The notes beneath the pieces are model-generated. The model was not told where the DNA came from, did not search any database, and worked only from the letters and a program-made list of their open reading frames with translations. This document shows positions 25,937 through 56,323 of a stretch of 64,000 bases of DNA, piece by piece. The position numbers were made by a program, and so were the translations under genes. This stretch comes from an uncultured Sphingomonadales bacterium (GTDB lineage Bacteria; Pseudomonadota; Alphaproteobacteria; Sphingomonadales; Rhodothalassiaceae), in assembly GCA_947499155.1 (NCBI GenBank), contig CANMND010000001.1, forward strand, positions 310,001-374,000. Direction: 5' to 3'. Numbering within the stretch: the stretch's first letter is position 1; the number at the start of each line of letters is the position of its first letter.

Positions 25937-27489
25937 CAGATCCTGCCGCCCTTCTTGTCGGTTTGCTGTTTGTAGCCCTGTTTTGCTTTTTGCTGACCGG
26001 ATTTCCTGTTGCGTTCATTTTGGGCGGCGTCGCCTTGCTGTTTGCCGCCATAGGTCTTGCCACCGGACATCTTGATCCCGGCTTCATTATGCTTTTACCT
26101 GACCGGATCATTGGCATTGCCCGCAATGAATTGTTGCTGGCTATACCCTTGTTCGTTGCCATGGGGGTGCTGCTTGAAAAATCCCGGATAGCTGAAGACC
26201 TGTTGTTGTCGATGGCCCGCCTTTTCGGCTCTGTTCGTGGCGGCCTTGGCTTTTCCGTTATTTTCGTAGGCGCATTGCTTGCTGCATCCACAGGCATTGT
26301 TGGTGCAACCGTCGTCACCATGGGCCTGATGTCGCTGCCGGTGATGCTAAAGCGGGGCTATGATCCCGCCCTGGCTGCAGGTTCAATCGCTGCTGCCGGC
26401 ACTTTGGGGCAAATCATTCCGCCATCAATCGTGCTGATCATGCTGGCTGATGTGTTGTCTTCTTCTTATCAGGAAGCCCAGCGTACCTTGGGGATAACGG
26501 CCACAAAGGCGCTTTCAGTGGGCGAGCTGTTTGCCGGTGCCCTTGTTCCCGGACTGGGGCTGGTGGTTTTGTATCTGCTTTATCAGGCGGGAATGGCGAT
26601 ATTCCGACCACAATCAAGCCCGGCCATTCGTCCTGATGACGAACTGAACGAAACCGACGTATCGCGGCTCCATATTCTGTCCGTGTTGTTACCGCCGGTC
26701 ATTTTGATCATCGCCGTGCTTGGCTCCATTCTTGTGGGAATCGCAACGCCGACTGAAGCGGCGGCCATGGGGGCAGTCGGTGCGATCATGCTGAGTGGGC
26801 GCAGACTTAAAGACGGACGGCAATGGCTTATGAACACAAGTCTGGCCGCTTTTGCCCTTCTTGCAATCCAGATACTCACGCTCGGACCGGCACTGGATGG
26901 TCTTGCCCTGATCTCAGCCCTTGTGCTTGGCAGCATTGGCATAGCGGGACTGGTGATGGCGGTCCGGATACTTCACACGTCAGCCATATTAATGCCCGTG
27001 ATGCAGGCATCTGTCCGCATCACGGTGATGATCTTCACAATTCTGATAGGCGCTGCCCTTTTCTCGCTGGTATTCAGGGGTCTTGGCGGCGATCACGTCA
27101 TTGAAAGCGTTCTCACCGGCCTTCCAGGTGGCGTTACCGGTGCGCTTGTTGTGGTGATGCTGGTGATGTTCTGTCTTGGATTTTTTCTCGACTTTATCGA
27201 AATTACCTTCGTCGTAGTGCCGATAATCGCACCGGCGTTATTTGTCATGGGTGTGGACCCTGTTTGGCTCGGAGTGATGATGGCAATCAATCTGCAAACC
27301 AGCTTTCTCACCCCGCCATTTGGATTCGCCCTGTTTTATTTGCGCGGTGTCGCACCCGACAGCGTCCTCACCGGGCAGATTTATCGTGGCGCTATCCCAT
27401 TTGTTCTGATCCAGCTATTTGCACTTGTCCTGCTCGCTTTTTATCCGTCCTTTGCCACCTGGCTTCCGCAACGCATATTTGCCGGTTAA
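25933..27489 (+). CDS. TRAP transporter large permease (DctM family)
   Basis: The Na+-coupled transport subunit, a 518-residue protein with about 12-14 membrane helices. Typical DctM segments are FLLTGFPVAFILGGVALLFA near the N-terminus, GIVGATVVTMGLMSLP, GTLGQIIPPSIVLIMLADV and, near the C-terminus, NLQTSFLTPPFGFALFYLRG. A region of about 100 residues in the middle (QSSPAIRPDDELNETD onward) enlarges the protein relative to short DctM forms, as in the longer 'fused' type. The GTG start at 25933 overlaps the dctQ stop. It is the last gene of the TRAP operon. Confidence 0.9.
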   Translation: MTDPAALLVGLLFVALFCFLLTGFPVAFILGGVALLFAAIGLATGHLDPGFIMLLPDRIIGIARNELLLAIPLFVAMGVLLEKSRIAEDLLLSMARLFGSVRGGLGFSVIFVGALLAASTGIVGATVVTMGLMSLPVMLKRGYDPALAAGSIAAAGTLGQIIPPSIVLIMLADVLSSSYQEAQRTLGITATKALSVGELFAGALVPGLGLVVLYLLYQAGMAIFRPQSSPAIRPDDELNETDVSRLHILSVLLPPVILIIAVLGSILVGIATPTEAAAMGAVGAIMLSGRRLKDGRQWLMNTSLAAFALLAIQILTLGPALDGLALISALVLGSIGIAGLVMAVRILHTSAILMPVMQASVRITVMIFTILIGAALFSLVFRGLGGDHVIESVLTGLPGGVTGALVVVMLVMFCLGFFLDFIEITFVVVPIIAPALFVMGVDPVWLGVMMAINLQTSFLTPPFGFALFYLRGVAPDSVLTGQIYRGAIPFVLIQLFALVLLAFYPSFATWLPQRIFAG

Positions 27490-27653
27490 TTCGTCTTTCT
27501 TGAATATCCGGCATGCCATTCAATAATAATCCCCTGTTCGACCGTCCGCTTTAGCCTTTTTTAAGCTTGATTTTAGATAGTTGTCCGCAAGCACCTGTGG
27601 AACAGCAACTGTTTCAGGGTCATAATTCAGGCAGCCAACGGCGGTTTCAGCGC

Positions 27654-28523
27654 ATGTTTTTGATTATCGGTCTTGTTATTGTCCTCGCCATGGTCTTCGG
27701 CGGTTATTTACTGGCGGGCGGCAAGATGGAAATCATCCTGCATGCCCTGCCTCATGAGCTGATGGTGATTTTTGGTGGTGCGATTGGGGCCTTCATCATC
27801 GCCAATTCATTGGGGATCATCAAAAAAGCACTGGCAGGCTGCGTCAAGGCGTTCAAGGGCGCAAAATGGACGAGCCAGGATTATGTCGATCTCTTGAGTC
27901 TGCTGTTCATTCTGATCAAGACGATGCGCACCAAGGGTGTGGTCGCAATCGAACAGCACATCGAGCACCCTGAAGAATCCAAAATATTCAACTATTTTCC
28001 AAGAATTGCAGCCGACCATCATGTGGTTGCATTCATCGCGGACTATCTGCGCATGATGACCATGAACTTTGAAGATCCGCACCAGATGGAAGAAGCAATG
28101 GACAAGGATCTGGAGCGTCATCACGCAGAAGAGCATGAACCACAGCACTCCATGCAGGTGATGGCGGATGGCCTGCCTGCAATCGGCATTGTCGCCGCTG
28201 TTCTTGGTATCATTAAAACCATGGCCTCCATCAACGAGCCAGTAGAAATTCTTGGCCGTCTTGTCGGCGGCGCTCTGGTCGGGACGTTTCTGGGAATCTT
28301 CCTGTCTTATCTGATTGTTGCACCTATTGCGGGCCGCTTTGGACAGGTGTTGGCAGAAGAAGCAAAATTCTTCGACATTATCAAGACGGTGCTGGTCTCC
28401 CACCTTCATGGCAATCCACCGCAAATTTCCGTTGAAATCGGTCGCCGCAACGTACCGGCACACCACCAGCCCAGTTTCAACGAGCTTGAAAACGCGCTGG
28501 ACGAAATACCGCCAGACCTTTAA
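27654..28523 (+). CDS. motA: MotA-like flagellar stator/proton channel subunit
   Basis: Inner-membrane stator protein that, with MotB, conducts protons to turn the flagellum. The 289 residues show four membrane helices: two near the N-terminus (IGLVIVLAMVFGGYLLAGG, ELMVIFGGAIGAFIIANS), a cytoplasmic loop of about 100 residues, then GLPAIGIVAAVLGIIKTM and GRLVGGALVGTFLGIFLSYLIVAPIAG with the conserved prolines. The ATG at 27654 is chosen because it starts the first helix; upstream codons add an unlikely Gln-rich leader. No motB follows, so the partner must be elsewhere. The gene supports motility, in line with the chemoreceptors at 35-39 kb. Confidence 0.92.
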   Translation: MFLIIGLVIVLAMVFGGYLLAGGKMEIILHALPHELMVIFGGAIGAFIIANSLGIIKKALAGCVKAFKGAKWTSQDYVDLLSLLFILIKTMRTKGVVAIEQHIEHPEESKIFNYFPRIAADHHVVAFIADYLRMMTMNFEDPHQMEEAMDKDLERHHAEEHEPQHSMQVMADGLPAIGIVAAVLGIIKTMASINEPVEILGRLVGGALVGTFLGIFLSYLIVAPIAGRFGQVLAEEAKFFDIIKTVLVSHLHGNPPQISVEIGRRNVPAHHQPSFNELENALDEIPPDL

Positions 28524-34502: not shown

Positions 34503-34532
34503 TTCCTCACCAAAAACTGCGCAAGTATTACC

Positions 34533-34568
34533 ATGGATTCCATGGTCAAGCCATGGAATGACGACGAG
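34533..34568 (+). repeat. Dispersed palindromic element, copy 1
   Basis: Core TCCATGGTCAAGCCATGGA forms a 7-bp perfect stem with a TCAAG loop, followed by ATGACGACGAG. The 31 bases 34533-34563 occur in exact reverse complement at 56046-56076, and a covarying variant lies at 56098-56128. It sits in the divergent intergenic region between the SAM adenosyltransferase and BtuF-like genes. Confidence 0.85.
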
Positions 34569-34747
34569 AGTTTCATGGAATGATGTGCAAAGGACCGCAG
34601 TGTTACGAAGAGCGCCCATAAAATGGCAAATAATTTGCCGTGGACTGGCGTGGAGAGGATCACTGCCTGATATGTCAGTTACAGGGAAAGCGCGGTTTCT
34701 TGTCTTTGGACTTGGCGGCGCATTCCCTTGGCGTTATTGTCCGCACC

Positions 34748-35659
34748 ATGAATATTATCACCCTGATCCCGTCCGCTACAGAAATTGTCTCTTGCCTTGG
34801 TCTCATGGACAGGCTGGTGGGAACCAGCCACGAATGTGACTGGCCTGAGACCCTGCCGAACTTGCCAAAATTGACCGCGCCCAAGCTTGATATCACCGCA
34901 ACCAGCGCAGATATCGACCGGTCCGTGAAATCGTTAATCGAGGACGCACTCGGCGTTTATCATGTTGATGCCGATAAAATGAAAGCGCTTGCACCCGATA
35001 TTATTATCACCCAGGACCAATGCGAGGTCTGCGCAGTTTCCGCAGGCGAGCTTGACAAGGCCCTGCACGACTGGACCGGTGGCAAGCCACAAGTCATATC
35101 CCTCTCTCCGCAGAATCTGGATGATATTCTGGACGATATCCAGCGTGTGGCAGCCCTGCTTGGTGTACCGGAGCGCGGAATTGCTTTCCTGCTTGATGCG
35201 CAAAAACGCATGGTAGCAGTAAAAGAAAAAGCTGCACAGGCCGAAACCCGGCCAACCATGGTCTTTCTTGAATGGATTGAACCGATGATGGCCGGTGGCA
35301 ACTGGATGCCGGAACTGGCAGATATCGCCAATGCCGACGCCTTGTTGGCCAAAGCCGGTGCCCATTCGCCTTATATGGACATGGAAGCACTGGCAAATGC
35401 CGACCCCGACGTCATCGTTGTCACGCCATGTGGCTTTGGACTGGAGCGTACAGCAAAAGAAATAGAGCCGTTGCTTGCCGACAAGGACTTTCAGGCTCTC
35501 AAAGCCATGCAAAATGGCCGTGTCTACCTTGCGGATGGGAATCACTATTTCAACCGCCCAGGCCCGCGCATAGTAGACAGCCTGGAATGCCTTTCGGAAA
35601 TGCTTCATCCAGAACTCTTTGAGGCTCGCATGAAGGGATCCGCTTGGCGGACTGTTTAA
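34748..35659 (+). CDS. BtuF-like cobalamin/metal-chelate binding protein without signal peptide
   Basis: A helical-backbone type III substrate-binding protein (303 aa). Motifs are ITLIPSATEIVSCLGLMDRLVG at the N-terminus, then SHECDWPETL, LAPDIIITQDQCEVCAVS, FLEWIEPMMAGGNWMPEL and a C-terminal NHYFNRPGPRIVDSLE. It resembles BtuF and relatives but starts without a secretion signal, as in a known cytosolic-looking 'cobalamin-binding protein' group; ligand and location are thus uncertain. The ATG at 34748 aligns with the family. No permease or ATPase genes adjoin it. A 150-bp relic of the 3' end of a related gene lies at 37698-37850. Confidence 0.85.
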   Translation: MNIITLIPSATEIVSCLGLMDRLVGTSHECDWPETLPNLPKLTAPKLDITATSADIDRSVKSLIEDALGVYHVDADKMKALAPDIIITQDQCEVCAVSAGELDKALHDWTGGKPQVISLSPQNLDDILDDIQRVAALLGVPERGIAFLLDAQKRMVAVKEKAAQAETRPTMVFLEWIEPMMAGGNWMPELADIANADALLAKAGAHSPYMDMEALANADPDVIVVTPCGFGLERTAKEIEPLLADKDFQALKAMQNGRVYLADGNHYFNRPGPRIVDSLECLSEMLHPELFEARMKGSAWRTV

Positions 35660-35692
35660 CGCAAAGACCTAATTACTCAGGCCATTGATTAC

Positions 35693-36895
35693 TTAGGTAT
35701 GGCGAACAGTTTCAAGGAACCGGTCTGATTCCGTTCGCATTTCCACAACGCGATCTTTCATTTCCCTGACTGCGGTCAACACGATTTGTGCTCGCTCACC
35801 GGTGTTTCTCGCGGTATTGCCGATATCTGCCAGTCCGGTACTCATACCGACGGTAGCCTGTTGGATATTGCCGCTGATCTCACCTGTTGCCCGCATCTGT
35901 TCATCGACAGCCTTGGTAATGGCTGTGATTACGCCTTACAAATCCTGTACTTGCTGTGAAATGGCAGTAATTGACGCGACTGTTGATTGTGTCGCCTGCT
36001 GCATTTCTTCGATCTGGTTTGCGATTTCCTGGGTAGCGTTTGCTGATTGGTTGGCAAGCGCCTTCACTTCCCCCGCCACGACGGCAAAGCCCCGGCCCGC
36101 CTCACCTGCACGCGCAGCTTCAATAGTGGCGTTAAGAGCAAGCAGATTTGTCTGCCCTGCTATCCCCCGGATAAAGACAATAACCCGATCCACGCTGGCA
36201 GCAACCTCTTCCAGTTCTGCTACCGCTTTTTGCGCATTCTGGATATCGATTGCCATTGACGTTACAGCATCAGTGGAGAAGTCCCCTTGCCTGCTAATTT
36301 CAAAGATTGAGGTGCTCAATTCTTCAGAGTTTTGAGCAATCGAACTGGCGGTTGCCGTGGTTTGTTCAACATCTTCTGCGGCGGTTGCAGCCACTTCCAG
36401 GCTATCGACTGAACTGGTCAACGCGTCCACAAGGTGCCTCATCTCCCGCTCAAATCCATCGGCAAGCGCGTGCCTTTCTCGTTGAGAAGCCTTTTCCATA
36501 TCGGCCATATGGGCACGGGTATGGTCAATATCACGCGCCCCTTGGGCAAAACTGCCGCGCAGGCCACGCTCCATGAAGCGCCTGTAGTACAAGCCTTTAC
36601 TGGCTGCCTTCAACGTCCCCCGTGAATCCCGGACACAAGCATCGGCCATATCAAGCAAATGATTAAGGGCGTGCATGCTGTCAACACCAAGCGCATCAGA
36701 CGCAATACCTGTAATGCAGGTTTCAAGATCGCCCGTTGCTGCATCCTAGCACACAGCCGCTATTCGCTCCAACGTATCGCGGTATGACAGGCATTCTGCT
36801 TCCAGTTCTTCAATTCTTGCATGACCGGCCCTGTTGATAGTGTCGTTGTCTGCACTGCGAACACCCTTGGCAACAAAACGAGAAAACATATTCAT
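35693..36895 (-). pseudogene. Soluble methyl-accepting chemotaxis protein, disabled by two nonsense codons
   Basis: One continuous frame of 401 codons is closely related to the intact chemoreceptor at 37895-39154, but interrupted by TAG at 36748-36746 (codon 50) and TAA at 35938-35936 (codon 320). The intact copy has Gln at both places, so each is explained by a change from CAG or CAA. It also lacks about 15 residues in the segment before AEQTT and three residues near TVGMSTG. The signalling hairpin ([41 protein letters not shown] region) is still recognisable. Its ATG (36895) overlaps the stop of the PAS gene (ATGA), as in the intact pair, so it was formerly coupled to it. Confidence 0.92.
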
Positions 36896-37434
36896 GCCGC
36901 CCTCTCCTGCGCAATCTGCATAAAGATAAATTCATCAAGGGTCATGTCATGGGCAGCGATCCGTGCGTCCAAAAGCGCGCTACCAGCTTCAAGACCCAGC
37001 TTGCGGCTGCCAGCACTCCTCTCGGCATTACAAAGATCCCGGTACAAGGCGGACATTTCATCAAGTACCGGTCGGTTAGGCGCACGTCGCATGGAATGGT
37101 ATCCGACGATACTGCCATCAGCCGCGAAGGTGGGCGTAAAATGGGCCACGACCCAATAAAAATCTCCACCTTTTGTCAGGTTTTTCACATATGCGAATAT
37201 TTCGTTCCCTGCCTTAAGGCGGTCCCACGCGGCCTTGAATATGGTGCGTGGCATATCGGGATGACGAATAATATTGTGCGGCTGCGTCAGAACTTCGTCT
37301 TCCACATAGTCCGCGATATCAAGAAATTCCCGATTGGCGTAAGTGATGCGCCCTTGCAGGTCTGTTTTTGAAACAATGATATTATCTGGAGAAAGATAAC
37401 GTTCGTTCTGTGTAGGTGTTGGTGTCCGTGACAT
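36892..37434 (-). CDS. Small PAS-domain sensor (Aer-like), copy A
   Basis: A 180-residue soluble protein with one PAS domain of the Aer type: [20 protein letters not shown] near residue 18, then [39 protein letters not shown] and a C-terminal helical part ([21 protein letters not shown]). In Aer such PAS domains hold FAD and sense redox state; that is assumed here. It has no membrane segment and would signal through a separate chemoreceptor. The partner gene next to it, to which it is coupled by ATGA, is a pseudogene. It is nearly identical in design to the PAS protein at 39151-39687. Confidence 0.88.
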   Translation of the reverse strand: MSRTPTPTQNERYLSPDNIIVSKTDLQGRITYANREFLDIADYVEDEVLTQPHNIIRHPDMPRTIFKAAWDRLKAGNEIFAYVKNLTKGGDFYWVVAHFTPTFAADGSIVGYHSMRRAPNRPVLDEMSALYRDLCNAERSAGSRKLGLEAGSALLDARIAAHDMTLDEFIFMQIAQERAA

Positions 37435-37894
37435 ATATACGACCTTATACCGGCATATACTCTTTTCTATGCAGCCTTTATCAGGCTTAGAAGACTTCTA
37501 TCTATATTTCACATAATTAAGAGTTAATTAAGAGAATTATACTAAAAATTTAGTACAATTGGAGATGTCCGAGTTTTCCGGAGCATCGCTTTTGCTTGCG
37601 CTAATAGTCAATTGCACCCCCGTTTACCTCGGGATGACGCAAGCTGTCCCGGCACTACATCTGAGATAGGAAAGGTACAGAGCACGTCATATGGCGAAAA
37701 GCCATGCGGATAAAAATGGGAAATATTTATGGTTACAATCCCACGGACCAATGCAGCGCCGGGCATGTTGAAACACGCCCTCAGCCGCTTCACCCTGAGC
37801 TGTTTGAGCCCTGGATGAAGAGAGCCGTATGGCGGACAGATTTACGCTAAAGCGTCGTCCAGAAGACTTTTACTAGATTAGACCAATACCGGCA
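37435..37894. other. Intergenic region between duplicated blocks
   Basis: 460 bases without an intact gene. 37435-37565 is AT-rich (ATAATTAAGAGTTAATTAAG) and probably holds the promoter of the minus-strand PAS gene. 37566-37697 shows nothing I recognise. 37698-37850 is the 3' relic of a BtuF-like gene. 37851-37894 is the spacer before the stop of the intact chemoreceptor gene, matching the 34-bp spacer of the other copy. Confidence 0.6.
37698..37850 (+). pseudogene. 3' remnant of a BtuF-like gene
   Basis: Translating this strand gives KAMRIKMGNIYG at the beginning and LHPELFEPWMKRAVWRTDLR before TAA. The end of the intact BtuF-like protein reads LHPELFEARMKGSAWRTV, also after KAMQNGRVYLADGN. 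The alignment runs in one frame with only small gaps. The remnant sits 44 bp from the end of the convergent chemoreceptor gene, as the intact BtuF gene sits 33 bp from the chemoreceptor pseudogene, so it belongs to a duplicated block. Confidence 0.82.
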
Positions 37895-39154
37895 TCAGGC
37901 TTGGCGGACTGTTTCAAGGAAACGCCCTGATTGCGTGCTGATTGCCTGAACGCGCTCTTTCATATCCTTGACCGCATTCAATACATCCAATGCCCGCTCA
38001 CCGGTGTTTCTGGCAATGTTTCTAATGTCAGATAATCCGGTACTCATCTCGGACGAGCCAACAGCAGCCTGCTGGATATTTTGACTGATCTCACCTGTCG
38101 CCCGCATCTGCTCATCAACGGCACTGGCTATGTTTGTGATCACACCCTGAAGATCTCGTGCCTGTTGTGCGATGGCAGATATTGACTGGATTGTGGATTG
38201 TGTTGCCTGTTGCATTTGCGTTATCTGAGCCGCGATATCTTCGGTAGCATTGGCGGACTGATTGGCCAGGGCTTTTACCTCTCCCGCCACCACCGCAAAG
38301 CCCCTGCCCGCCTCACCCGCGCGCGCAGCTTCAATTGTGGCATTAAGCGCAAGCAGATTTGTCTGGCCTGCTATATCACGAATAAAGACGACAACACGGT
38401 CCACATTTGCTGCGGCGTCTTCCAGACCTGCCACAGCTTTTTGCGCATTCTGGACATTATTTGCCATCGATGCCACGGCTTCAGCAGAATAATCCCCTTG
38501 CCGGCTGATTTCAGAAATTGACGCGCTTAATTCTTCAGAGCTTGCAGCAATGGCGCTGGCTGTGGATGTGGTTTGTTCAGCATTTGACGCAGCCGTCACA
38601 GCGCTGGTGACCGTATTGTTGGCATTGTCGGCCATGGTGGCAGCCACCGCTTCCAAGCTATCGGCTGAACTGATCAATGTATCGACAAGATGCACCATCT
38701 CGCGTTCAAACTCATCAGCAAGCGCGTGCCTTTCTTGTCTGGCCGTCTTTTCCATATCAGCCATGATTGCCCGCGTCTGGTCGATATCTCTTGCGCCCTG
38801 GGCAAAACTTCCGCGCAAGCCGCGCTCCATGAACCGCCTGTAATATCTGCCTTCACTGGCAGCTTTCAGAGTTCCGCGCGATTCCCTGACATAGGCATCA
38901 GTCATATCCAGCAATTGATTCAGGGCATGCATGCTGTCTGCGCCATGGGCATCGGCGTCAAGCCCTGTTATGCGAACCTCAAGGTTGCCCTGTGCCGCCG
39001 ACTGACACACTGCGGCAATCCTGTCTTGCGTCACACGAAAAGACGTGTTTTCCGCTTCCAGCTCCGCTATGCGCTGATGCAACTTCCTGATCTGCATTTC
39101 ACCAGCGTTACTCATGCGGCTCCTTTTGAGATTAAAGTATGACAACACAGTCAT
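37895..39154 (-). CDS. Soluble methyl-accepting chemotaxis protein, copy B (intact)
   Basis: A 419-residue chemoreceptor without membrane helices. Residues about 20-50 form a coiled coil ([15 protein letters not shown]); 55-140 is a HAMP/linker-like part ([17 protein letters not shown], then [22 protein letters not shown]). From about 190 the MCP signalling domain follows, with the hairpin [20 protein letters not shown] and [17 protein letters not shown]. This is the C-terminal half of an Aer-like PAS-MCP, encoded separately. ATG at 39154 overlaps the PAS gene stop (ATGA), so the two proteins are made together and likely form one oxygen/redox receptor. It presumably contacts CheA/CheW; no che genes are in view. 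Confidence 0.9.
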
Positions 39155-39687
39155 GCTGCGCACTCCCGCACTGTCTGCATGAAGTTGAACTCATCGAACG
39201 TCAAACCATGTGCTGCAAGCCGGGCATCAAGAAGTGCACTTCCAGCCTCCAATCCCAGCTTTCTGCTCCCTGCTGCTGATTCTGCATCACACAGATCTTT
39301 ATAAAGTACCGATATTTCATCAATTACAGGACGATCAGGCGCACGTCGCATGGAATGGTAGCCTGAAATACTGCCATCCGCTGCAAAGGTAGGAGTGAAA
39401 TGGGCCAATACCCAGTAAAAATCACCGCCTTTTGTCAAATTCTTCACATAGGCGAAGATTTCATGACCGGCGGCTATATTCTCCCATGCACGTTTAAAAA
39501 TAGTACGTGGCATATCGGGATGACGAATAATATTATGAGGCTGTGAGAGAACTTCGTCTTCCGCGTAATCGGCAATATCAAGGAAATCACGATTGGCGTA
39601 GGTGATGCGCCCTTTCAGATCTGTTTTTGAAACAATAATATTGTCTGGCGCAAGAAACCGTTCATGAGACGTGGTAACAGGCGTCAT
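39151..39687 (-). CDS. Small PAS-domain sensor (Aer-like), copy B
   Basis: The 178-residue partner of the intact chemoreceptor. The PAS domain begins at about residue 15 ([20 protein letters not shown]) and shows [20 protein letters not shown] and [19 protein letters not shown], the Aer-type core, followed by a helical C-terminus. It differs from copy A by scattered substitutions only. The stop overlaps the chemoreceptor start by 4 bp. The cofactor (probably FAD) and stimulus (oxygen or redox) are inferred from Aer. Confidence 0.9.
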
Positions 39688-39840
39688 GGGGTCACCTTAA
39701 ACAAACTCAAAAAGGGCAATATCCACTCGCCCATACAGGTCGGACCTTGGACAGTATTCAAACGCTCTTAAAAAATTATAAACAGACAAATTTTACGAAA
39801 CTGTCGCGGTAAGCGCATAGCGGTTCCGCACACCTTTCCA

Positions 39841-42015
39841 CTAGCCGGTGCGAACACCCCCTCTTACGACAGACAAGACACGTCCTGGTGTCAGAATCTG
39901 AGGCAAAATCTCCGGTTCGCTGCCATCGGCAGGATAAAAGAGGTAAAGCGGCACGCCATTGCGACCAAAGCGTGCCAGTTCTTGTGCAATTGCATCATTG
40001 CGGTTGGTCCAGTCCGCTTTCAATGTCACGACGCCATGATCCTTCATGGCAGACGTCACAGCCGCATCGTCAAGGGCAACCCGCTCGTTTACCTTACAGG
40101 TGATACACCAGTCTGCTGTGTAGTAGACGAAGACCGGACGTCCATCTGCCCGCAGTTCGGCCAGACGCGCAACTGACCATGGCTCGACATTGAGGCTTGC
40201 TTCAAAGGAACTTTGCGTCCCTTGTGCATCCCCCTCGGCAATAATCCGGCCTGCAGACCCTTCGCTACCCAAACCGGCAAGGTAAGTAAGTGCCGACAGC
40301 ATCGCACCGACCACCAGCACCACCCCAAGCCCGCCGGCAACTCGGCCCTTTAGGCCCGCTCCCTTAAGTCTGCCGGTCAGCCATAACACAAATCCCAAAG
40401 CGACCAGCGCTATAAGAGCAACCGCCACAGCATCAGTCCCCGCCTGCCGCCCCAGAACCCACAAAAGCCAGATTACTGTCAGGAACAAAGGAAATGCCAG
40501 GAACTGACGGAATGTTTCCATCCAGTTACCGGGACGCGGCAACATATGACGCAAGGCTGGGATAAAGGTTAGCAGCACATAGGGCAAAGCAAGTCCAAAC
40601 CCCAGGCTTAGGAAGATCGCCACCGCCACAGGCATAGGCTGGAACATGGCAAACCCAAGGGCCGACGCCATGAAAGGTGCAGTACAAGGTGTTGCGACTA
40701 TGGTTGCCAGAACGCCTGTGAAAAACGCACCGGATGTGCCCTTTTTCTCAGTCAGTGATTGCCCGATACCCGCAAGCCTGCCGCCAAAGGAATAGACGCC
40801 TACCAGATTGAGCCCCAGGCCAAATAAAAGTAAAGCCAGCAAAGTGACGATGACAGGCGTCTGCAACTGGAATCCCCAGCCTATCTGCGCGCCGCCCGCC
40901 CGTAATCCCAACAGGACGAGCGCAACTACAAGAAAACTTGCTAAAATCCCGGCACCATAAGCCAAACCATCCCGTCGCGCCGCCGCTTCGCCAGCACCAT
41001 GAGCACGGATCAAGGCAAAAGCTTTAAGCGACAGAATCGGGAACACGCATGGCATCAGATTGAGGATCATGCCTCCCAAAGCGGCAAATAAAATCGCCTT
41101 CCACGCGCTCATCCCCGCCAACATATCCGGCAAGCCTCCAGCCGCATGTGCAGCACGGGCCGGAACGACAAGGCCTGATACAAAAGAGCCGGGAGCAACA
41201 AGAGAGAATCCTTCCCTCTCTCCTGTGGTGTTGGTCATGACCAGAAGGCCGCTTACCTCATCAATCAGTGAGGCATTACTGGGTCGCTCGGTCACAAGGC
41301 GCAAACCATCGCCGGTTTTTTCCAGTATCTGAGGGGCGGCATAGCGGACAAGCCCATCAGTCAGCGGAAAAAAATAGGCATCCCTGACCAGTGCCATTTC
41401 CTGATCCGACATGGCGACGGTCAATGAAGACGCTGACTCATTCATTTCCGCATGTGCCTGCCATGGCGAGATCTGCGGCAAGGCTGCGCGAGCATCGGCG
41501 AAAAGACGCGCCATTTCAGATGTTACAGACCCCTTGCCCGGGATCATCTGCCATTCAAAATGGCCGCTCTCTGGTACGCAAATCTCTTCACAGACCAGCC
41601 AGTCTCCATCCATGACCATCGGAATCGGCGCGTCAGGAAGTGTTGCAGGAGGTGTCAGCTTGACCAGAAGCGTTGCCGGCAACTCATACCCATAGTTCAT
41701 GAAAGGGCCGACCGGAATACGGTAAGGTACCGGATATAATGGAGTATCTGCTACCCAGCCTTCAGGCAGCTTCCAGTCGAAAAAGGGTACTTTTCCAGTA
41801 TCGCCGTAATTTTCCCAATAGCTGTGCCAGCCCTTGATCGGGGTGACGCGAATACCCAGCCATAGCGGCTCACCGGCTTTGACTGTTGTGCGTTCAACAA
41901 AAATCTCAGTCAGACTTTGAAGATTTTGCACCCGCGACACCGGCTCTGCTGTCTGTGCGACGGACAGAACAGGGAAAGCTACAAGTGACAAAAGCAACGC
42001 AATAAAACGCATCAT
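39841..42015 (-). CDS. DsbD/ScsB-like thiol:disulfide reductase
   Basis: Carries electrons from cytosolic thioredoxin across the inner membrane to periplasmic thiol proteins. The 724-residue protein has a signal peptide and a periplasmic DsbD-alpha-like domain (WHSYWENYGDTGKVPFFDW; CEEICVP cysteine pair). A CcdA-like transmembrane domain follows, with its two cysteines in LNLMPCVFPILSLKAF and VATPCTAPFMASALG. The C-terminal thioredoxin-like domain has the active site DWCITCK. All three redox pairs are present. The ATG at 42015 (or 42012) is the start; the TTG before it is unlikely. Confidence 0.9.
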   Translation of the reverse strand: MMRFIALLLSLVAFPVLSVAQTAEPVSRVQNLQSLTEIFVERTTVKAGEPLWLGIRVTPIKGWHSYWENYGDTGKVPFFDWKLPEGWVADTPLYPVPYRIPVGPFMNYGYELPATLLVKLTPPATLPDAPIPMVMDGDWLVCEEICVPESGHFEWQMIPGKGSVTSEMARLFADARAALPQISPWQAHAEMNESASSLTVAMSDQEMALVRDAYFFPLTDGLVRYAAPQILEKTGDGLRLVTERPSNASLIDEVSGLLVMTNTTGEREGFSLVAPGSFVSGLVVPARAAHAAGGLPDMLAGMSAWKAILFAALGGMILNLMPCVFPILSLKAFALIRAHGAGEAAARRDGLAYGAGILASFLVVALVLLGLRAGGAQIGWGFQLQTPVIVTLLALLLFGLGLNLVGVYSFGGRLAGIGQSLTEKKGTSGAFFTGVLATIVATPCTAPFMASALGFAMFQPMPVAVAIFLSLGFGLALPYVLLTFIPALRHMLPRPGNWMETFRQFLAFPLFLTVIWLLWVLGRQAGTDAVAVALIALVALGFVLWLTGRLKGAGLKGRVAGGLGVVLVVGAMLSALTYLAGLGSEGSAGRIIAEGDAQGTQSSFEASLNVEPWSVARLAELRADGRPVFVYYTADWCITCKVNERVALDDAAVTSAMKDHGVVTLKADWTNRNDAIAQELARFGRNGVPLYLFYPADGSEPEILPQILTPGRVLSVVRGGVRTG

Positions 42016-42190
42016 CAAAGTCTCACATGTGCAGACATCAATTCTCCAATACCGAGTGCAAGTCTAGCACTTGCCCGCGGCTCCCCCCATTCACGACTGC
42101 GTTATGGCCTTAGAACCATTAACAGCCTATGTGGCACAAGGCCCCATGGCGCATCAGTATGTATGAAATTTTACATTTACACACAAAAAA

Positions 42191-55923: not shown

Positions 55924-56323
55924 TCGTTACATCAACAGCACCCTTGGGTTTCCCGGCTGCCATCTACGCCGCTTCATGCCCCCTGCTTCCTGCACTGCGT
56001 CAACCAATGGCGACTTAACTGTGTCATTCCATGGCTTCTTGGTAACGTCATTCCATGGCTTGACCATGGAATCCATAGTCCACCGACAGATGTGCGCATG
56101 GATCCCACGATCAAGTCGTGGGATGACGAGGGTGAAATATCATGGGATGACGAGGGTGAAATGTCGTGGGATGACGAAGGTAAAGCGTCGTGGGATGACG
56201 GGAGAGGAGGATCGGGGTAACGGATGAAGTCGCCTGAAAAGACATATCCTGTTAATTTTTCATTGGCAGAAGATAGTTTCTGCGCCACAGTTCAAAAGGG
56301 AGAAAAATAAAGGGGACAATATT
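55924..56323. other. 400-bp intergenic region with compound repeats
   Basis: No gene in 400 bases. 55924-56015 is unremarkable; 56024-56206 is the repeat array; 56207-56323 leads to the DUF2189 gene, with AAAGGGGAC upstream of its ATG. Short open frames on both strands through the array are by-products of the 24-nt period. Confidence 0.65.
56024..56206. repeat. Compound palindromic element with 24-nt tandem arms (copies 2 and 3)
   Basis: Two units starting TCATTCCATGGCTT lie 24 bp apart (56024, 56048). The second completes the palindrome 56046-56076, an exact 31-bp reverse complement of 34533-34563. A variant palindrome, CCCACGATCAAGTCGTGGG, lies within 56098-56128. Its right arm is then repeated with a 24-nt period: TCGTGGGATGACGAGGG from 56116, then 56140, 56164 and a partial copy from 56188. 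The arms of the two palindromes differ at three paired positions, with pairing kept. Confidence 0.85.

Follow-up and report, generated by a model that had tools for sequence, protein, structure and literature searches.

The 64,000-nucleotide stretch of DNA analyzed here, called the window, carries a block that probably constitutes a duplicated operon for a CetBA-type bipartite energy-taxis receptor, with both sensor proteins, CetB-A and CetB-B, likely docking on CetA-B. One of the two transducer genes, cetA-A, is broken and both cetB genes are intact, and therefore the locus encodes two CetB proteins and one CetA.

The first copy lies next to an intact plus-strand gene for a BtuF-like substrate-binding protein (34748..35659; Peripla_BP_2, Pfam PF01497, E 3e-24). 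This gene is convergent with cetA-A, and the duplicated segment has its left edge in the 3' end of the BtuF-like gene. Block A itself is on the minus strand and consists of cetA-A (35693..36895; MCP-A), a soluble CetA-like chemoreceptor pseudogene recognized by its stops, in-frame deletions, and accelerated branch, and cetB-A (36892..37434), which encodes an intact stand-alone Aer-type PAS protein of 180 aa. The second copy begins with a piece of the BtuF-like 3' end on the plus strand, the secure part of which is 37787..37850. It is followed on the minus strand by cetA-B (37895..39154; MCP-B), an intact soluble CetA-like transducer of 419 aa with an MCP signalling domain (PF00015, E 1e-31), and by cetB-B (39151..39687), an intact stand-alone Aer-type PAS protein of 178 aa identified by the CetB-family profile and a Foldseek match to Aer. 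The right-hand neighbor, dsbD (39841..42018, minus strand), is conserved within the genus. The cetB and cetA genes overlap by ATGA at both junctions, and the spacers between the BtuF-like sequence and the chemoreceptor gene are 33 bp in A and 44 bp in B. The original prediction had given these block coordinates, overlaps, and spacers, and all of them were correct. Matches to consensus promoters and terminators at the locus were near chance level.

A tandem duplication had been proposed for this locus, and nucleotide alignment of the two blocks supported it. Blocks A (35693-37434) and B (37895-39687) were colinear and 72% identical over 1834 aligned columns (about 1.8 kb). Direct repeats with a spacing of 2202-2259 covered nearly the whole unit at 74-83%, and the similarity reached beyond the conserved MCP and PAS domains to include the BtuF 3' end. 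CetB-A and CetB-B were sisters in the CetB tree (support 100/99), as were CetA-A and CetA-B in the CetA tree (100/99). A relative with a single block was also sought and was found in G002, a genome of the same genus, in the order motA - cetA - cetB - thioredoxin-like gene - dsbD. Colinear copies, sister relationships in both protein trees, a copied flank, and a single-copy relative thus all support the duplication. The sequences upstream of cetB-A and cetB-B had no alignable similarity beyond chance and did not provide a right edge for the duplicated segment. Gene conversion between A and B was also considered and rejected, since the copies had diverged evenly over the length of the block, the longest identical run was 29 nt, and no conversion tract was seen.

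The copied segment would have started within the BtuF-like gene, in its 3' end, extended past cetB into the upstream sequence, and been placed head to tail. In the BtuF 3' region, 35602-35665 matched 37787-37850 over 64 nt with 75% identity (E 1e-6), and none of 500 shuffles gave an equally good match. The relic had been predicted to start at 37698. A short AAAGCCATGC...AAAATGG match could lengthen it leftward to approximately that position, which makes this start plausible, but the extension is suggestive only (13 of 500 shuffles) and the secure part is the last 64 nt. It had also been claimed that the two copies decayed in a complementary way, the chemoreceptor in A and the BtuF-like gene in B. 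The decay of cetA-A is real, but that of a BtuF-like gene in block B was not supported, and neither was the inclusion of the BtuF-like gene in the duplicated unit. Only a 3' end is present beside block B, and a duplication starting inside the BtuF-like gene would leave exactly such a piece, making decay unnecessary. A simpler reading is that the relic marks one edge of the copied segment. No comparable BtuF gene was found at E<=1e-20 in the two same-genus genomes, G001 and G002.

The identity of the sensors was addressed through their fold and their cofactor site. The best PDB sequence match of the CetB-family profile was the Aer PAS domain 8dik (E 2e-37), and the AF2 model of CetB-B (pLDDT 95) had the same structure as its best PDB match (Foldseek E 1.7e-13). 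The FAD pocket of Magnetospirillum gryphiswaldense CetB2 is formed by His54, Asn55, Arg58, Phe67, Trp71, Asn86, Val100, and Arg117 (PMC12442639). Seven of these eight residues are kept, and their counterparts, H51, N52, R55, F64, W68, N83, and R114, are identical in CetB-A and CetB-B; at the eighth position, Val100, both copies have Phe. The residues and the modeled fold suggest that CetB-A and CetB-B are FAD-binding sensors. They are the only CetBs in the source genome (2.81 Mb), which has one intact CetA at E<=1e-50 and also carries CheA/CheW-type genes and flagellins.

The locus encodes a stand-alone Aer-type PAS protein beside an MCP without a sensory domain of its own, but not the inner-membrane CetA with a TM hairpin that is present in the two characterized systems. 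No hydrophobic or TM segment was found in CetA-A, CetA-B, or the CetAs of G001 and G002. The hhalign alignment of CetA-B with membrane CetAs (E 6e-100) spanned 380 columns, starting at a HAMP-like region and ending at the C-terminus, and left out only the TM hairpin of the membrane CetAs; the membrane proteins used were fetched alphaproteobacterial ones, with M. gryphiswaldense CetA2 itself not among them. The Pfam HAMP domain was not detected in any of the soluble or membrane CetAs tested, and both kinds have a common conserved region before the signalling domain. Because there is no TM segment and the alignment covers all but the TM part, the product of this locus appears to be a soluble relative that works like CetBA rather than a textbook member. 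A survey took in 104 loci; a soluble CetA came after 53 of the CetBs and a membrane CetA after 36 (soluble in 53 of 89 pairs), counts that are not population frequencies since the loci were picked by similarity to the window's CetB.

In the proposed mechanism, CetB would hold FAD and report the redox state of respiration. It would switch the soluble CetA by contact, and CetA would in turn control CheA through CheW, with energy taxis as the expected output. Both CetB-A and CetB-B would dock on the remaining CetA-B, in the way that CetB and CetC dock on CetA in Campylobacter jejuni. The 2:1 state is observed in the genome, and by this analogy the two CetB paralogs may act through one CetA.

The two genes of block A have had different fates. 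Read in frame, cetA-A has stop codons at positions 50 (TAG) and 320 (TAA) and, relative to cetA-B, in-frame deletions of 15 codons (45 nt) and 3 codons (9 nt), with no frameshift. The CetA-A branch exceeds that of CetA-B by 0.16 substitutions per site (95% 0.04 to 0.29); the CetB-A branch is not longer than that of CetB-B (difference -0.02, 95% -0.18 to 0.14). Between copies A and B, dN was 0.13 and dS was saturated for CetB (NG86 2.5), and dN was 0.19 and dS 1.4 for CetA. Since the synonymous differences in CetB are near saturation, the duplication is old, and the low dN combined with saturated dS indicates that both CetB sensors have long been constrained. The low overall dN of CetA points to a loss of constraint on CetA-A late after the duplication, and cetA-A appears to be a recent pseudogene relative to that event. 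Both copies would have co-existed for a long time before nonsense mutations and small deletions broke cetA-A and left both cetB genes intact.

Another explanation is that CetB-A is a leftover that lost its signalling role when its partner died and is the next gene to go, so that the two-sensor state is passing and functionless. We consider this possible but rather unlikely. If CetA-A decayed recently relative to the duplication, CetB-A has had little time to follow, and CetB-A alone departs from the rest at four outgroup-invariant sites, compared to one for CetB-B. The single block in G002 also fits this explanation. However, the CetB-A frame is open, all of its FAD-site residues are present, and its branch is no longer than that of CetB-B; 95% of bootstrap pairs hint that constraint on CetB-A continued after the death of CetA-A. 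In addition, Iodidimonas muriae has retained an intact second CetB without an adjacent CetA, and arrays of two sensors and one transducer, in the order B-B-A or B-A-B, recur in other genomes (loci L038, L102, L128, L017, and L056). The tandem CetB pairs at L038, L102, and L128 are sisters in the CetB tree. Two complete tandem cetBA pairs, both intact, were seen in another genome, G013 (L036 4963-8872).

I. muriae JCM 17843 (G001; contig NZ_BMOV01000008) belongs to the same genus as the source of the window and has two CetBs and one CetA in total. One of its contigs (C9) starts with cetA - cetB - thioredoxin-like gene - dsbD, and another (C8) starts with a second cetB directly beside motA, without a cetA between them. 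The contig starts bear similar insertion-sequence-like ends (L031 1-75 and L032 1-68; AGTCCTGAACCTAG / GGTCCTGACCCTAG), which probably explain the assembly break at the cetB array, and the adjacency of C8 and C9 is thus taken from synteny. The thioredoxin/AhpC-TSA-like gene found between cetB and dsbD in both I. muriae and G002 is absent from the corresponding interval of the window (39688-39840). In the CetB tree, the two I. muriae CetBs group together (99/97). Pairing copy A with the orphan CetB of I. muriae was rejected (AU p 0.0003), and forcing copy B together with I. muriae CetB-1 and G002 was also rejected. The simplest reading is that two duplications, one in the source lineage and one in I. 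muriae, apparently occurred independently and that each ended as two sensors with one transducer. It is improbable that a single duplication in the ancestor of the genus was followed by gene conversion within each genome and by loss of a copy in G002. The extra CetB does lie on the side away from dsbD in both the source genome (G000) and I. muriae, and its CetA is dead or absent in both. Against this, the even divergence of A and B shows no sign of a conversion tract, neither I. muriae nor G002 has any trace of the BtuF end delimiting the duplicated segment here, and the grouping of copy A with the orphan was rejected, though complete conversion would yield the same tree. It is very improbable that cetA-A is still alive as a shortened protein that starts at an internal ATG and works as a signalling stub. 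The open frame from 36676 to 35936 (246 aa) does span the signalling tip and a portion of the HAMP-like region, but the stub would lack the N-terminus, a C-terminal stretch, and 15 further residues, and the cetA-A branch is approximately twice the length of that of CetA-B.

The surroundings of the block have also been rearranged. TRAP-large adjoins SAM_HAT in G001, G002, and G004, and motA is near dsbD in G002, G003, G004, and G048 and on the facing contig ends in I. muriae. The window has motA (27567..28523, plus strand; PF20560/PF01618) after TRAP-large, and SAM_HAT adjoins the BtuF-like gene and block A. Because this gene order differs from that of the relatives, the segment from SAM_HAT to motA must have been inverted in the source lineage. 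One breakpoint of this inversion is at the edge of the cetBA block, and motA, which adjoins cetBA on the left in I. muriae and G002, was moved away by it. Relative to those two genomes, the junctions fall at 27489-27567 and 34619-34748, and neither an inverted repeat nor a common sequence was found at the two. A short palindromic repeat of the CCATGGATTCCATGGTCAAGCCATGG type is located at 34530-34563, beside the breakpoint and within the extended N-terminal part of the SAM_HAT ORF. A genome search at E<=0.01 gave 18 matches to this repeat, itself included. Another member of the family, at 56023-56129, overlaps a small ORF (55974-56288) that encodes a repetitive PSSSHD-type peptide.

The receptor belongs to a known kind; its soluble CetA and the recurrent 2:1 outcome are mildly interesting and no large surprise. 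If the proposed reading is correct, the locus offers a natural experiment in the evolution of split receptors, in which the sensor is easily duplicated and retained and the transducer is not. The locus draws attention to soluble CetAs, which were common in the survey, as opposed to the membrane CetAs of characterized systems. With a parallel 2:1 outcome in two Iodidimonas lineages, it becomes testable whether a single CetA can serve two CetBs. A more speculative idea, to which we give limited credence, is that selection favors the 2:1 state. In bipartite energy-taxis receptors, copies of the small sensor gene would arise repeatedly and persist, the surplus transducer would disappear, and one soluble CetA would carry mixed CetB pairs and integrate two redox thresholds, with the window and I. 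muriae as two independent arrivals.

Three known systems can be compared to this locus. The parallels to M. gryphiswaldense CetB2-CetA2 (PMC12442639) are the overlapping cetB-cetA pair, the stand-alone PAS protein, and the matching FAD-site residues; however, CetA2 is anchored in the inner membrane and the window's CetA has no TM segment. Herz et al. 2025 (PMC12442639) found that other CetB paralogs of M. gryphiswaldense do not replace CetB2. Paralogs are therefore not necessarily interchangeable, which counts against easy sharing of one CetA. In contrast to those paralogs, the window's CetBs come from a tandem duplication that has left one CetA. The C. jejuni CetABC system (PMC2628428, PMC3558505) likewise encodes a pair of PAS proteins next to a single CetA-type transducer, and there both CetB and CetC serve CetA, with CetC able to substitute for CetB (PMC3558505). 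Unlike the soluble CetA of the window, C. jejuni CetA resides in the membrane and has a HAMP domain. The PAS genes of C. jejuni flank cetA, whereas in the window the pair was duplicated in tandem and one CetA was then lost, which gave the 2:1 ratio. Escherichia coli Aer shares the PAS fold, its PAS domain 8dik being the nearest solved structure, but Aer combines PAS, HAMP, and signalling in one membrane protein, whereas the window divides the receptor between two proteins without TM segments.
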